From contig NZ_AP024745.1 in the NCBI RefSeq assembly GCF_019704555.1, forward strand, positions 7,882,501 to 7,946,500: a stretch of 64,000 nt of DNA, read 5' to 3'. Every line of letters begins with the position of its first letter. Position 1 is the stretch's first letter. This DNA comes from Actinoplanes sp. L3-i22 (lineage in GTDB: Bacteria; Actinomycetota; Actinomycetes; Mycobacteriales; Micromonosporaceae). Both the position numbers and the translations under genes were made by a program. Below the pieces are notes generated by a model. The model saw only the letters and a list, made by a program, of their open reading frames with translations. It searched no databases and was not told the origin of the DNA. This document shows positions 54,954 through 60,041 of this stretch, piece by piece.

Positions 54954-55271
54954 GTGGCAAAGATAGATATCAAGAACAGTGGCGATGGATGGTTGGTCGT
55001 GTGGCTCGAGCCGCTCGGCGAGGACCGCTGGCTCAAGCCCGGCGAGAAGTTCCAGATCCAGGACGACTACGCGGGCCCCGAGTCGCCGTTCACGATCGAC
55101 CACTGGTTCGACCGGGACGACCGGGCGGCCGGGATCGAGCACCTGTCGGTCTGGGTGGAGTACGGCGACCTCTACGCCAAGGTCACTGACGAGACCGGCT
55201 CGGTGATCGAGTGCGGGCACCAGCGTCCGTCCGACGTCGACCACAAGTGGGCGGACGCCCGCGAGCGGTAG
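54954..55271 (+). CDS. Small hypothetical protein
   Basis: A 105-residue, acidic and Trp-rich soluble protein: VAKIDIKNSGDGWLVVWLEPLGEDRW, then SPFTIDHWFDRDDRAAG. No recognised family. Start GTG 54954; an upstream ATG (54933) is in frame. It lies 14 bp before the class V aminotransferase-like gene, so they may be co-transcribed. A TTGACT-like -35 occurs at 54898. Confidence 0.65.
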   Translation: MAKIDIKNSGDGWLVVWLEPLGEDRWLKPGEKFQIQDDYAGPESPFTIDHWFDRDDRAAGIEHLSVWVEYGDLYAKVTDETGSVIECGHQRPSDVDHKWADARER

Positions 55272-55285
55272 GAGACACTGTCGCC

Positions 55286-56485
55286 ATGGTCCTCGACGTG
55301 ACGGCACTCCGCGCCCACTTTCCCTCCCTTGATCACGGCCTGGCGTTCTTCGACGGGCCGGGCGGCAGCCAGACCCCGCGACCGGTCGCCGAGGCGATCG
55401 TCGCGACGATGACCGGGCCGCTGTCGAACCGCGGGACGATCAGTTCGTCCGAGCTCAACGCCGAGCGCGCGGTGACCGAGTTCCGCGCCGCCTACGCCGA
55501 CCTGCTCGGCGTGCCCGCGGCCGGCATCGTGCACGGGCGCAGCGCGACCCAGCTCACCTACGACTTCTCCCGGCACCTCGCCAAGACGTGGCGGCCCGGG
55601 GACGAGATCATCGTCAGCCGCCTGGACCACGACAGCAACGTCCGGCCGTGGATCCAGGCCGCCGAGCGGGCCGGCGTCACGGTCCGCTGGATCGAGCTGG
55701 ACCCGTCGACCGCCGATCTGGACCTGGACACCTTCCGGCCGACCGACCGGACCCGGCTGGTCGCGGTGACCGCCGCGTCGAACATCCTCGGCACCAAGCC
55801 GCCGCTGCGCCGGATCGCCGACCTGGCGCACGAGGCGGGCGCGCTGGTCTACGTCGACGGCGTGCACTACGCGGCCCATCACCTGGTGGACGTGGCGGCG
55901 CTCGGGGCGGACTTCTTCGTCTGCTCGCCGTACAAGTTCCTCGGCCCGCACTGCGGGGTCCTCGCCGCCTCCCCCGCGCTGCTGGCGACGCTCTCGCCGG
56001 ACAAGCTGGTGCCGTCGTCGAACGCGGTGCCGGAGCGCTTCGAGTTCGGCACGCTCCCCTACGAGATGCTGGCCGGCGCGACCGCCGCGGTCGACTTCCT
56101 CGCGGCCGTCGCGCCGGGCTCCGCCGAGTCCCGGCGGGCGCGGCTGACCAGCTCGTTCGCCGCGATTCACGAGTACGAGCTGGTGCTGCGGGCGCGTCTC
56201 GAGGAGGGGCTGCGCGGGTTCGGCGACGCGCTCACGATCCACTCGACGGCGGCCGACCGGACGCCGACGACGTTGCTGACCATCGAGGGCCGGGACGCGC
56301 GCGAGGCCCAGATCCACCTCGCCGGGCTCGGGGTCCTGGCGCCGGCCGGCTCGTTCTACGCCTACGAGCCGTTCACCGCGCTGAAGCTGGTCGACCCCGC
56401 GCTCCGCGTCGGCCTCGCCCCCTACAACACCGCCGACGAGATCGACCGCCTGCTGGCCGGCCTCGCGGCCTTGCTCGAGCTTTAG
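55286..56485 (+). CDS. Class V aminotransferase / cysteine desulfurase-like protein (TIGR01976-like)
   Basis: A 399-residue PLP enzyme of the NifS/CsdA-like fold type I. RGTISSSELNAER, GRSATQLTYDFSR, IIVSRLDHDSNVRPW, VYVDGVHYAAHHLVDV and the PLP lysine in VCSPYKFLGPHCG are visible. The HYAxH and YKFxGPH pattern is that of the TIGR01976 cysteine-desulfurase-like group. The active-site Cys-loop of true desulfurases is not evident, so a lyase or other role is possible. Its stop is 28 bp from the convergent amine oxidase. Confidence 0.85.
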   Translation: MVLDVTALRAHFPSLDHGLAFFDGPGGSQTPRPVAEAIVATMTGPLSNRGTISSSELNAERAVTEFRAAYADLLGVPAAGIVHGRSATQLTYDFSRHLAKTWRPGDEIIVSRLDHDSNVRPWIQAAERAGVTVRWIELDPSTADLDLDTFRPTDRTRLVAVTAASNILGTKPPLRRIADLAHEAGALVYVDGVHYAAHHLVDVAALGADFFVCSPYKFLGPHCGVLAASPALLATLSPDKLVPSSNAVPERFEFGTLPYEMLAGATAAVDFLAAVAPGSAESRRARLTSSFAAIHEYELVLRARLEEGLRGFGDALTIHSTAADRTPTTLLTIEGRDAREAQIHLAGLGVLAPAGSFYAYEPFTALKLVDPALRVGLAPYNTADEIDRLLAGLAALLEL

Positions 56486-56513: not shown

Positions 56514-57746
56514 TCACCACGGCTCGGCGGCGGCGCGGATGATCTCGGTGGCCCGGGCGGCGATCTCGTCGTCCGAGCCGGTCCACAGCGTGTCCTGCCA
56601 GGGGCCGGCGAACAGTCCGACCAGGGTGGGGGTGCCGTCGGCGGCGGTCGCGTCGAGCCACTCGCTGATGCAGTTCTCGGCCGGCCCGTGCACGCGGTAG
56701 TAGCCGTGCTCGGGCCAGAACCGCCGGTCGAACCGGAGGATCACCTTCTCGACCCGGCCCGCGCCGAGGTGCGACAGCGCGGTCCGGTGGGACTCCGGCA
56801 GCGGCGGGTCGAACGTGATCGCGCCGGCCGCGAGGACCGGCAGCGGCACGGTCACGATCACCGCGTCGGCCGCCTCCCGGACCTCGCCGCCGGACACGAC
56901 CACCGTGCCGGGCTGGACGTCGATCCGGTCGACCGGCCGGCCGAGGCGGATGTCGAGGCCGGCGGCGAGGTGGGCGGTGAGCAGGCGGTAGCCGCCGACG
57001 ATCCAGCGGTCGCCCTCGCCCACGCCCGGCTCGAAGCCGTGCCGGGCGCTGAGCCAGGTCAACGGCACGCCCGCGTCCATCACGATCTCGGCGTCGGCGA
57101 GCCGGTGGATCTGATCCGGGGTCCACGGCGCCGGAGCGCGCAACCAGTCGCCGAGGACGTCGGCGACGCTCGCCTGCGGTCCGGCGGCGGCGAGGCGGTC
57201 GCGCAGGTCGTCCTCGATGCCGTGCGGGATCGGGTGGGCGTTGAGCACGAGCGGGTCGGTGAAGTCGGTGACGACCGTGGTCAGGCCCAGTCGCTCGGCG
57301 AGGCGGGCGAGCACGTTGTCGTCGTACTGCTGGAGCCAGTTGGCGCCCAGGTCGAACGCGCCGCCGGCCACGTCGACGCCGGCGGTCCGGCCGCCGATCC
57401 GGTCCCGGGCCTCCCGGATCCGCACCTGGACGCCCCGCTCGGCGAGTGCGCGGGCGGCGGCGAGCCCGGCCATCCCGGCGCCGACCACCAGGACGCCGGG
57501 GTGACCGCGTTCGATCGCCCAGGCCGCGGCGGCGAGGCCCTGCTCGTACGCGCCGTGGGTCATCCCGGCGCGGGTCGGGTGGGTGGCCTCACCGGCGATC
57601 CGCAGCCGGTCGCCGACCGGGGTGCCCAGCGCGATCCGGTCCTGCGGGGTGCCGTGCCGGCCGATCAGGCTCCACGAGCCGCGCGCCCACGGGTCCGCAC
57701 CCCAGTGCGACACCGCGGAACCGAGCAGCCTGGCCTTGATCGACAT
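56514..57746 (-). CDS. Flavin amine oxidase-like protein with circularly permuted order
   Basis: A 410-residue protein (start ATG 57746; GTG 57755 possible). Counting from the GTG, residues 16-76 (SHWGADPWARGSWS, PVGDRLRIAGEAT, THGAYEQGLAAA) are the segment that normally ends amine oxidases of the MAO/protoporphyrinogen oxidase fold. Only then, at residues 87-123, comes the dinucleotide-binding start GVLVVGAGMAGLAAARAL with EARDRIGGRTAG. The substrate domain follows and the protein ends at DEIAARATEIIRAAAEPW, where relatives would continue into the WG.DP.ARGS segment. All blocks are in one frame. FAD-dependent oxidation of an amine is expected if folded. Confidence 0.82.
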   Translation of the reverse strand: MSIKARLLGSAVSHWGADPWARGSWSLIGRHGTPQDRIALGTPVGDRLRIAGEATHPTRAGMTHGAYEQGLAAAAWAIERGHPGVLVVGAGMAGLAAARALAERGVQVRIREARDRIGGRTAGVDVAGGAFDLGANWLQQYDDNVLARLAERLGLTTVVTDFTDPLVLNAHPIPHGIEDDLRDRLAAAGPQASVADVLGDWLRAPAPWTPDQIHRLADAEIVMDAGVPLTWLSARHGFEPGVGEGDRWIVGGYRLLTAHLAAGLDIRLGRPVDRIDVQPGTVVVSGGEVREAADAVIVTVPLPVLAAGAITFDPPLPESHRTALSHLGAGRVEKVILRFDRRFWPEHGYYRVHGPAENCISEWLDATAADGTPTLVGLFAGPWQDTLWTGSDDEIAARATEIIRAAAEPW

Positions 57747-57816: not shown

Positions 57817-58392
57817 TTAGTCGATTTTGATCAAAGACCGGGCGATGTCGCGGGCGACCGTGCTGATCTCGGCCTCGGAGGCGTTCAGCCCGCGCGAGGC
57901 CATCAGCACGATGTTGACGCTGAGCAGCGCGGCGCGGACCCGCAGCGCCTCCTCGACCGGGGCGTCCGGGCCGGTCAGGTGGTCGAACAGCTCGGTCATC
58001 TTGCCGAACGCGTTCTCCCGGCCCTTGCTCTGGTGCAGCTCGCGGACCACGTGCTGGTTGGCCATCGCGAACTTCATCGCGGCGGCGCCGCTGCCGACGC
58101 TGAGGTCGATCATGCGCTCGACGGCCTGGGCGCGCAGCTCCGGGCTGGGCGGCTGCGCGACGGCCCAGGCGACCAGCTCCTCGATCGCGTCCAGGTGGGC
58201 CTGGAAGATCGACAGGACGATCTCGTCCTTGCTGTTGTAGTGGTAGTAGAGCGCGGCCTTGGTGATCCCGAGCCGCTCGGCGATCTCGCGCAGCGAGGTG
58301 CCCTCGTAGCCCCGCTCGGTGAACAGCTCGATGGCCACCCTGCGGATCTCCGCCTTCGTGTCGGCGCCTCGCCGCTGACCTGCCGTCGCCAT
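57817..58392 (-). CDS. TetR-family regulator of the MFS efflux gene
   Basis: A 191-residue TetR. HTH at about residues 12-55 (TSLREIAERLGITKAALYYHYNSKDEI). Divergent from the EmrB/QacA-type transporter; the gap holds two similar palindromes (58430-58447, 58453-58470). Typical repressor of drug efflux, with the ligand-binding helical C-terminus. Confidence 0.93.
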   Translation of the reverse strand: MATAGQRRGADTKAEIRRVAIELFTERGYEGTSLREIAERLGITKAALYYHYNSKDEIVLSIFQAHLDAIEELVAWAVAQPPSPELRAQAVERMIDLSVGSGAAAMKFAMANQHVVRELHQSKGRENAFGKMTELFDHLTGPDAPVEEALRVRAALLSVNIVLMASRGLNASEAEISTVARDIARSLIKID

Positions 58393-58493: not shown

Positions 58494-60041
58494 GTGACAC
58501 AACCTGAACCCATCCGCTTCACTCACCGCGAAATCATGGTGACCATGAGCGGCCTCGTGATCGCGATGCTGCTCGCCATGCTCGACAACATGATCGTGGC
58601 ACCCGCGCTGCCCACGATCGTCGGCGACCTGCACGGCCTGAACCATCTGGCCTGGGTGACCACCGGCTACGTGCTCGCCTCCACGGTCGCCACCCCGATC
58701 TGGGGCAAGCTCGGCGACCTGCTCGGCCGGCGCGTCACGTTCCTCACCTCGATCGCGATCTTCCTGGTCGGCTCGGCACTCTGCGGCATGTCGCAGAACA
58801 TGGGCGAGCTGATCGCGTTCCGCGCGGTCCAGGGCCTCGGCGCCGGCGGCCTGATGGTCGGCGTCATGTCCGTCCTGGCCGACATCGTGCCGCCCCGCGA
58901 GCGCGGCAAGTACCAGGGCGTGATGATGGCCGTCATGCCGGTCGCGATGATCGGCGGCCCGCTGGTCGGCGGCTTCATCACCGACAACCTGAACTGGCGC
59001 TGGGCGTTCTACGTCAACCTGCCGCTCGGCCTGGTCGCGCTCGGCGTCTGCTGGTTCGTGCTGGCCAAGCTGCCCCGCGGGGCCGGCAAGGCGCGCATCG
59101 ACTGGCTCGGCGCCGCCCTGCTCAGCGTCTGGATCACCGCGTTCGTGCTGATCACCACGTGGGGCGGCAGCCAGTACGACTGGTCCTCCCCGCAGATCCT
59201 CGGCCTGCTCGCGCTGACCGTCGGCGCGTTCGTGGCGTTCATCATGGTCGAGCGCCGCTCCGCCGAGCCGATCATGCCGCTGTCGGTCTTCCGGAACCGC
59301 AACTTCGCACTGGCCGGCGCGCTCAGCCTGATCGTCGGGTTCGCGATGTTCGGCGGCATCACCCTGCTGCCCCAGTTCCAGCAGTACGTGCAGGGCGCCT
59401 CGGCCACCAACAGCGGCCTGCTGCTGATGCCGATGATGATCGCCGCGATGACGGTCTCGCTGATCGGCGGCCAGCTGATCACCCGCACCGGGCACTACCG
59501 GGCGCTGCCGATCGTCGGGACCGTCCTGATGACGGCCGGCCTGGGCCTGTTCGCCACCATGGACACCGGCACGTCGCGGTTCATGACCAGCGTGTTCATG
59601 GTCGTGCTCGGCGCCGGCATGGGCTGCCTGATGCAGACCACCATGCTGATCGCGCAGAACAGCTCGCCGATCAACGCGATCGGCGCGGCGACCGGGGCGG
59701 CCACCTTCCTGCGCAACATGGGTGGCTCGCTGGGCGTCTCGCTGCTCAGCACGATCTACACCAACCACCTGCTCGACTCGCTCGCCGACAGCGGCGGCTC
59801 GGCGGCGACCAGCACCGGCTCGGCGGCCGGGATGACGCCGGCGATGCTGCGGGCACTGCCCGAGCCGGTCCAGCACGCGTTCGCGGTGGCGGTCAGCAAC
59901 GGGATCGGCGCGGCGTTCGTCTGGGGCGCGGCGGCGGCCGCGGCCGGGATCGTGGTGGCGCTGTTCATCAAGCACGTGCCGCTGCGCGGCTTCGCGGACG
60001 CGCCGAAGCCGGCGCCGGTGGTGGCTCTGCAGGACGCCTGA
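58494..60041 (+). CDS. MFS drug transporter, DHA2 (EmrB/QacA) family
   Basis: A 515-residue, 14-helix proton antiporter with GTG start. LAMLDNMIVAPALPTIVGDL (motif D1-like), GKLGDLLGRRVTFL (motif A) and the motif C region MPVAMIGGPLVGGFITDNLNWRWAFYVNLPLG are conserved. It would export drugs or toxic metabolites across the membrane, repressed by the divergent TetR. AAAGAAG precedes the GTG. A terminator hairpin follows. Confidence 0.93.
   Translation: MTQPEPIRFTHREIMVTMSGLVIAMLLAMLDNMIVAPALPTIVGDLHGLNHLAWVTTGYVLASTVATPIWGKLGDLLGRRVTFLTSIAIFLVGSALCGMSQNMGELIAFRAVQGLGAGGLMVGVMSVLADIVPPRERGKYQGVMMAVMPVAMIGGPLVGGFITDNLNWRWAFYVNLPLGLVALGVCWFVLAKLPRGAGKARIDWLGAALLSVWITAFVLITTWGGSQYDWSSPQILGLLALTVGAFVAFIMVERRSAEPIMPLSVFRNRNFALAGALSLIVGFAMFGGITLLPQFQQYVQGASATNSGLLLMPMMIAAMTVSLIGGQLITRTGHYRALPIVGTVLMTAGLGLFATMDTGTSRFMTSVFMVVLGAGMGCLMQTTMLIAQNSSPINAIGAATGAATFLRNMGGSLGVSLLSTIYTNHLLDSLADSGGSAATSTGSAAGMTPAMLRALPEPVQHAFAVAVSNGIGAAFVWGAAAAAAGIVVALFIKHVPLRGFADAPKPAPVVALQDA

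Follow-up and report, generated by a model that had tools for sequence, protein, structure and literature searches.

A family of actinobacterial flavin amine oxidase genes, found in Actinoplanes and many other genomes, with a rotated order of the canonical blocks

The flavin amine oxidases of Pfam family PF01593, including LSD1/KDM1A, LSD2/KDM1B, the polyamine oxidases and MAO-A/B, share a flavoenzyme fold that is among the most thoroughly studied, and in work on it the order of the chain is assumed as given. Permuted order is on record in other enzymes: the reports on MalS (PMC10223318) and on GH3 GlyA1 (PMC5104943) describe natural permuted glycoside hydrolases, which like the protein analyzed here have a permuted domain order inside a known enzyme family, the enzymes themselves being unrelated to it. 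Among the matches listed from titles and abstract openings of the open-access literature, with subscription journals mostly outside its scope, no account of an amine oxidase that is circularly permuted in nature was found, and a permuted amine oxidase is likely undescribed so far. The L-glutamate oxidase of Streptomyces (2e1m, 9w54) has cut chains and a canonical gene order, and so differs from the present protein in having no permutation.

The gene considered here lies in a stretch of 64,000 nucleotides from Actinoplanes sp. L3-i22 (the window). Its product shares with the PF01593 family every block, the motifs for FAD, the flavin-facing lysine and the fold as predicted, but its closing block is N-terminal and its 410 residues hold neither a SWIRM domain nor a tower-sized insert; LSD/KDM1 proteins and polyamine oxidases are nearest to it by sequence and fold only. 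The same motifs occur in canonical block order in a protein from the same taxonomic order (L034, group f8; 39% identity to the window protein over aligned pieces) and in two plasmid proteins that were read, from Haloarcula pelagica (L105; 36% identity over aligned pieces) and Synechocystis (L106). The features of the gene are as follows.

56514..57746, minus strand: flavin amine oxidase gene of circularly permuted order, 410 amino acids plus stop; PF01593
57507..57731, minus strand: moved closing block, residues 6-80, with W..DPWARGSWS, AGEAT and HGAYEQG motifs; PF01593 piece at residues 6-75; profile match to LSD1 742-828 and MAO-B 380-453
57495..57521, minus strand: junction, residues 76-84, end of the block helix and short turn that leads to the first FAD strand (in the model, helix 63-79 and strand 84-88)
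57378..57497, minus strand: FAD-binding start, residues 84-123, GAGMAG and EARDRIGGRTA (motifs; predicted structure)
56745..56747, minus strand: Lys334, aligned with K of 29/29 canonical rows
56517..56573, minus strand: new C-terminus, residues 392-410, the last core helix (model helix 392-407; LSD1 alignment up to 738), where canonical relatives continue into the W..DP block

The reading frame runs from an ATG at 57746 to a stop codon at 56514-56516, with a GTG nine bases upstream of the ATG as an alternative start; the coordinates given by the initial annotation are correct, and the minus strand, which it did not give, can be added to them. Along this single frame the motifs come in the order WGADPWARGSWS (15-26), VGDRLRIAGEAT (44-55), HGAYEQGLAAAA (64-75), GAGMAG (89-94) and EARDRIGGRTA (112-122). 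PF01593 scores 193.2 bits against a curated cut-off of 19.8, and when the whole genome (12.0 Mb, one contig) was searched with this model three pieces fell inside the open reading frame in rotated order: model positions 363-440 on residues 6-75, 1-72 on 92-165 and 193-364 on 243-406 (residue numbers converted from genome coordinates). These pieces are a rotation with the cut at model position 363/364. The motif read-out and the rotated pieces together bear out the earlier claim that closing-type blocks precede GAGMAG within one frame. Canonical block order is absent from the protein, which with its PF01593 blocks rotated is therefore classed as a permuted variant of the family; since the same order is given by a curated model of independent make, it exceeds chance.

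Comparison with known structures places both parts of the chain. LSD2 (4gu0) is the best sequence match in the PDB, with residues 82-156 and 248-346 aligned to chain positions 336-411 and 528-627, and residues 12-74 to 708-770 of 776, the last match being weak alone (8.9 bits, E 7.3). A profile of the N-terminal block, made from 31 permuted proteins, matches LSD1 at 742-828 of a chain of 852 (E 8.3e-19) and LSD2 at chain positions 703-774 of 776 (E 1.2e-18), and also spermine oxidase at 408-482 and MAO-B at 380-453. The structural alignment of model residues 78/81-410 ends at LSD2 744 and LSD1 738, which agrees with the expectation that the chain stops where relatives enter the W..DP block; with the core aligned to LSD1 up to 738 and the block profile starting at 742, little is missing or doubled. 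The AlphaFold2 model (50 permuted sequences as input) is confident over the whole chain (pLDDT 94.9, pTM 0.93), and residues 1-80, which the initial annotation had singled out as those that might fail to complete the FAD domain, reach 82-99 by blocks of ten residues, the core alignment stopping where the block match begins. When folded alone the N-terminal block gives weak structural matches, and its LSD1 alignments span 295-831 and do not fix its position.

The rearranged form is found well beyond this strain. Permuted order occurs in at least 73 of 980 actinobacterial genomes (G000-G979), the strain's own included, which answers how many homologues share it; this and the following counts are lower bounds, with up to 18 candidates scored per genome for the genus, 9 each for class and phylum and 24 for the family. 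A search for relatives gave matches colinear to the window oxidase in 27 of 59 other genomes of the genus, two of them (G006, G031) interrupted by runs of N. Profiles of the junction gave contiguous matches in the strain's own genome and at least 25 more of the 394 genomes that represent the class, in at least 6 further genomes among 396 of the phylum (38 genomes being common to the two lists), and in at least 13 further genomes among 150 of the family; one more case (L116) was identified from its sequence. When the genomes are sorted by group code, the permuted form occurs in 13 of the 20 f51 genomes listed (L116 included), 5 of 5 of g387 and 6 of 11 of g397. Outside Actinomycetota, coverage consisted of plasmid records and a scan of genomes of all phyla for exact matches to short peptide patterns from the window oxidase, in which 16 of the 48 stretches carrying a pattern encode relatives: 13 from Actinoplanes and one each from Catenuloplanes japonicus, Kineosporia rhizophila and the MAG CAN_BIN24. 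In 17 further genomes chosen for the permuted gene, PF01593 alone gave a piece starting at model position 367-375 directly upstream of a front or middle piece in 15, and only later pieces, among the matches listed, in the other two (G046, G888); this search runs through stop codons, so that some front pieces extend beyond the end of the gene. All 50 of 50 permuted members match PF01593, and G89, G91, G94, E112 and R120 (GxGxxG, ExxxRxGGR) are present in 65/65 permuted and 29/29 canonical rows. Permuted amine oxidases are thus a widespread family, conserved across many actinobacterial genomes.

Several single cases may be recorded beside these counts. The permuted gene of G006 appears split across opposite strands (C1:4348334-4349275, plus, followed by a run of N, and 4357320-4357667, minus), by either an inversion or an assembly fault. 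G970 has two junction matches of equal score on two contigs (C34:505624-506100 and C43:224959-225435), reflecting a duplicate gene or a duplicate assembly. G961 and G967 (g397) each carry a permuted oxidase and also a canonical relative; in the latter, the match to the same block profile lies at the opposite end of the ORF. The permuted gene of Kineosporia rhizophila (L042), a member of another actinobacterial family, is 68% identical to that of the window and falls inside the Actinoplanes-type clade in trees, probably as a result of horizontal transfer.

The product of the gene is very probably a naturally occurring circular permutant of the MAO/LSD/polyamine-oxidase fold. Against this stand two readings in which nothing was permuted. 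The N-terminal block could be an extra copy ahead of an otherwise normal oxidase, a duplication without permutation, and such a duplicated form would be expected en route to a permutant. However, when ORFs of at least 200 residues in the collected loci were sorted with a two-profile classifier (89 permuted, 45 canonical and 7 with the FAD part only, some genes being counted in several loci), no ORF had the block at both ends, so no duplication intermediate was seen among those classified, and none of the 89 permuted ORFs had a second closing block above 10 bits, the arrangement of extra N-terminal domain and normal C-terminal segment that the initial annotation had named as speaking against it. 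The chain terminates where a second block would start: for canonical rows whose block scores above 40 bits, 332-384 residues separate the FAD start from the start of the block, and permuted chains end 292-430 residues (median 332) past the FAD start, with 8-13 residues between the block and FAD profiles in permuted rows. The extra-copy reading was rejected on the 0/89 count and retains practically no probability. An assembly artefact, a frameshift or a decaying gene could in turn have produced the order, and damaged or masked copies do exist, with runs of N in L018 and L030 and, in L062 and L087, two of the 73 genomes' cases, a permuted gene seen only as a truncated ORF. Against this, the frame is single and open, and dN/dS is low in block and core alike: across 66 pairs from 12 chosen Actinoplanes orthologues (Nei-Gojobori) the median is 0.19 (maximum 0.44) for the moved block, residues 12-80, and 0.34 (maximum 0.47) for the core, residues 81-405, both values being probably overestimated, if anything, because third positions are GC-rich and dS is compressed. 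These values indicate purifying selection on the moved block. Conservation of the order in at least 73 genomes led to rejection of artefact or decay, which is likewise extremely improbable. The single frame and the shared order uphold the earlier view of a genuine permutation rather than two genes, and because the same version recurs in many related bacteria the rearrangement looks like an old and maintained one and no sequencing accident.

How often the permutation arose is a separate matter. It may date from far back in the history of Actinomycetota, when tandem copies of a canonical gene would have become joined in frame and lost sequence at either end. A single old origin is the simplest reading, because the cut is common to the permuted forms. 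Repeated origin at the same loop is unlikely, although the trees require two to four order changes: four in the 94-row quick tree, where starred branches force at least two, two in the 39-row tree and four in the tree built without the moved block, and in these last two trees none of 200 bootstrap trees could be explained by one change. On the other hand, the starred branches of the careful trees force just one change, a single permuted clade is not rejected in AU tests (p 0.72, with a likelihood 18.9 above the free search; p 0.25; and, for the block-less tree, p 0.19), and the cut is identical across distant groups. A bolder proposal, that permutation recurs at a hot spot of the MAO fold, the loop that precedes the closing block, with at least two order changes in Actinomycetota, useful in that a Tat or lipoprotein anchor would move to another face of the enzyme and re-orient the active site to the membrane, is more doubtful still. 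Two Actinoplanes genomes (L022/L047/L122 and L025/L123) have, immediately upstream of the permuted gene and in the same orientation, an oxidase from a distant canonical subfamily (L047:3397-4911 and L122 in A. couchii; L123 in G025). Neighbours of this kind thus do occur, but the upstream oxidase is not the source of the permuted gene.

In the circular permutation, which is the preferred reading, the chain begins with the block (GEAT motif) that canonically closes it, a short turn couples this block to the usual first FAD strand, and the new termini lie in the stretch that separates the core's last helix from the W..DP block. The fold would close as in canonical enzymes, and the protein would thereby bind FAD and oxidize an amine or similar compound with O2 to an imine and H2O2. 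FAD-dependent amine oxidation with O2 as acceptor is the best guess on function from family, motifs and model, and the protein is probably a working FAD amine oxidase. It might instead be a permuted MAO-fold protein with another substrate, a dehydrogenase, or without catalysis. MAO-fold enzymes have substrates that include amino acids and others, and the lysine at the column of Lys334, which aligns with the one facing the flavin in LSD1 and polyamine oxidases, is present in 29/29 canonical but only 52/65 permuted rows, being replaced by T, V, L or A in 11 rows of f51 (L067, L069-L074, L076, L078, L079, L116) and by R in two of f44 (L054, L057); these relatives may have either a different chemistry or lost oxidase activity. 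The window protein, however, has K334, the FAD motifs and the GEAT block, and its top matches by structure and sequence are LSD2, LSD1, cyclohexylamine oxidase and polyamine oxidases, so that a role other than amine oxidation seems improbable for it.

The permuted proteins are of two types, judged from a loose search for twin-arginine-like and lipobox motifs. All 30 of 30 permuted rows not of the Actinoplanes type have a twin-arginine-like motif ahead of the block, 21 of them with a lipobox as well; among 35 rows of the Actinoplanes type, which take in Catenuloplanes, Kineosporia and family relatives, an RR motif occurs in one and a lipobox in none; among 29 canonical rows the numbers are 15 and 6. 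These counts suggest a signal-less type, to which the window protein belongs and which is presumably cytosolic, and a type with a putative Tat-like or lipoprotein signal at the new N-terminus, export signals appearing to have been joined to that terminus in distant relatives.

The neighbours of the oxidase gene vary from locus to locus. In the window they are the following.

55211..56485, plus strand: class-V aminotransferase (PF00266), convergent with the oxidase gene
57817..58392, minus strand: TetR-family regulator (PF00440), 70 bp upstream of the oxidase gene on the same strand
58494..60041, plus strand: MFS transporter (PF07690), divergent from the TetR gene

A TetR-MFS pair near the oxidase occurs in 3 of 16 loci. 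The TetR protein is a possible regulator of the oxidase gene, and its position 70 bp upstream, together with the divergent MFS gene, makes induction by a toxic or exported compound conceivable, as a possible but tentative suggestion.

A rotated family with and without export signals is a natural experiment on fold topology, on the fixation of permutations and on the break point that evolution tolerates. Profile matches given without their order conceal permuted proteins of this kind. If the enzyme works, its new termini would be natural fusion sites.
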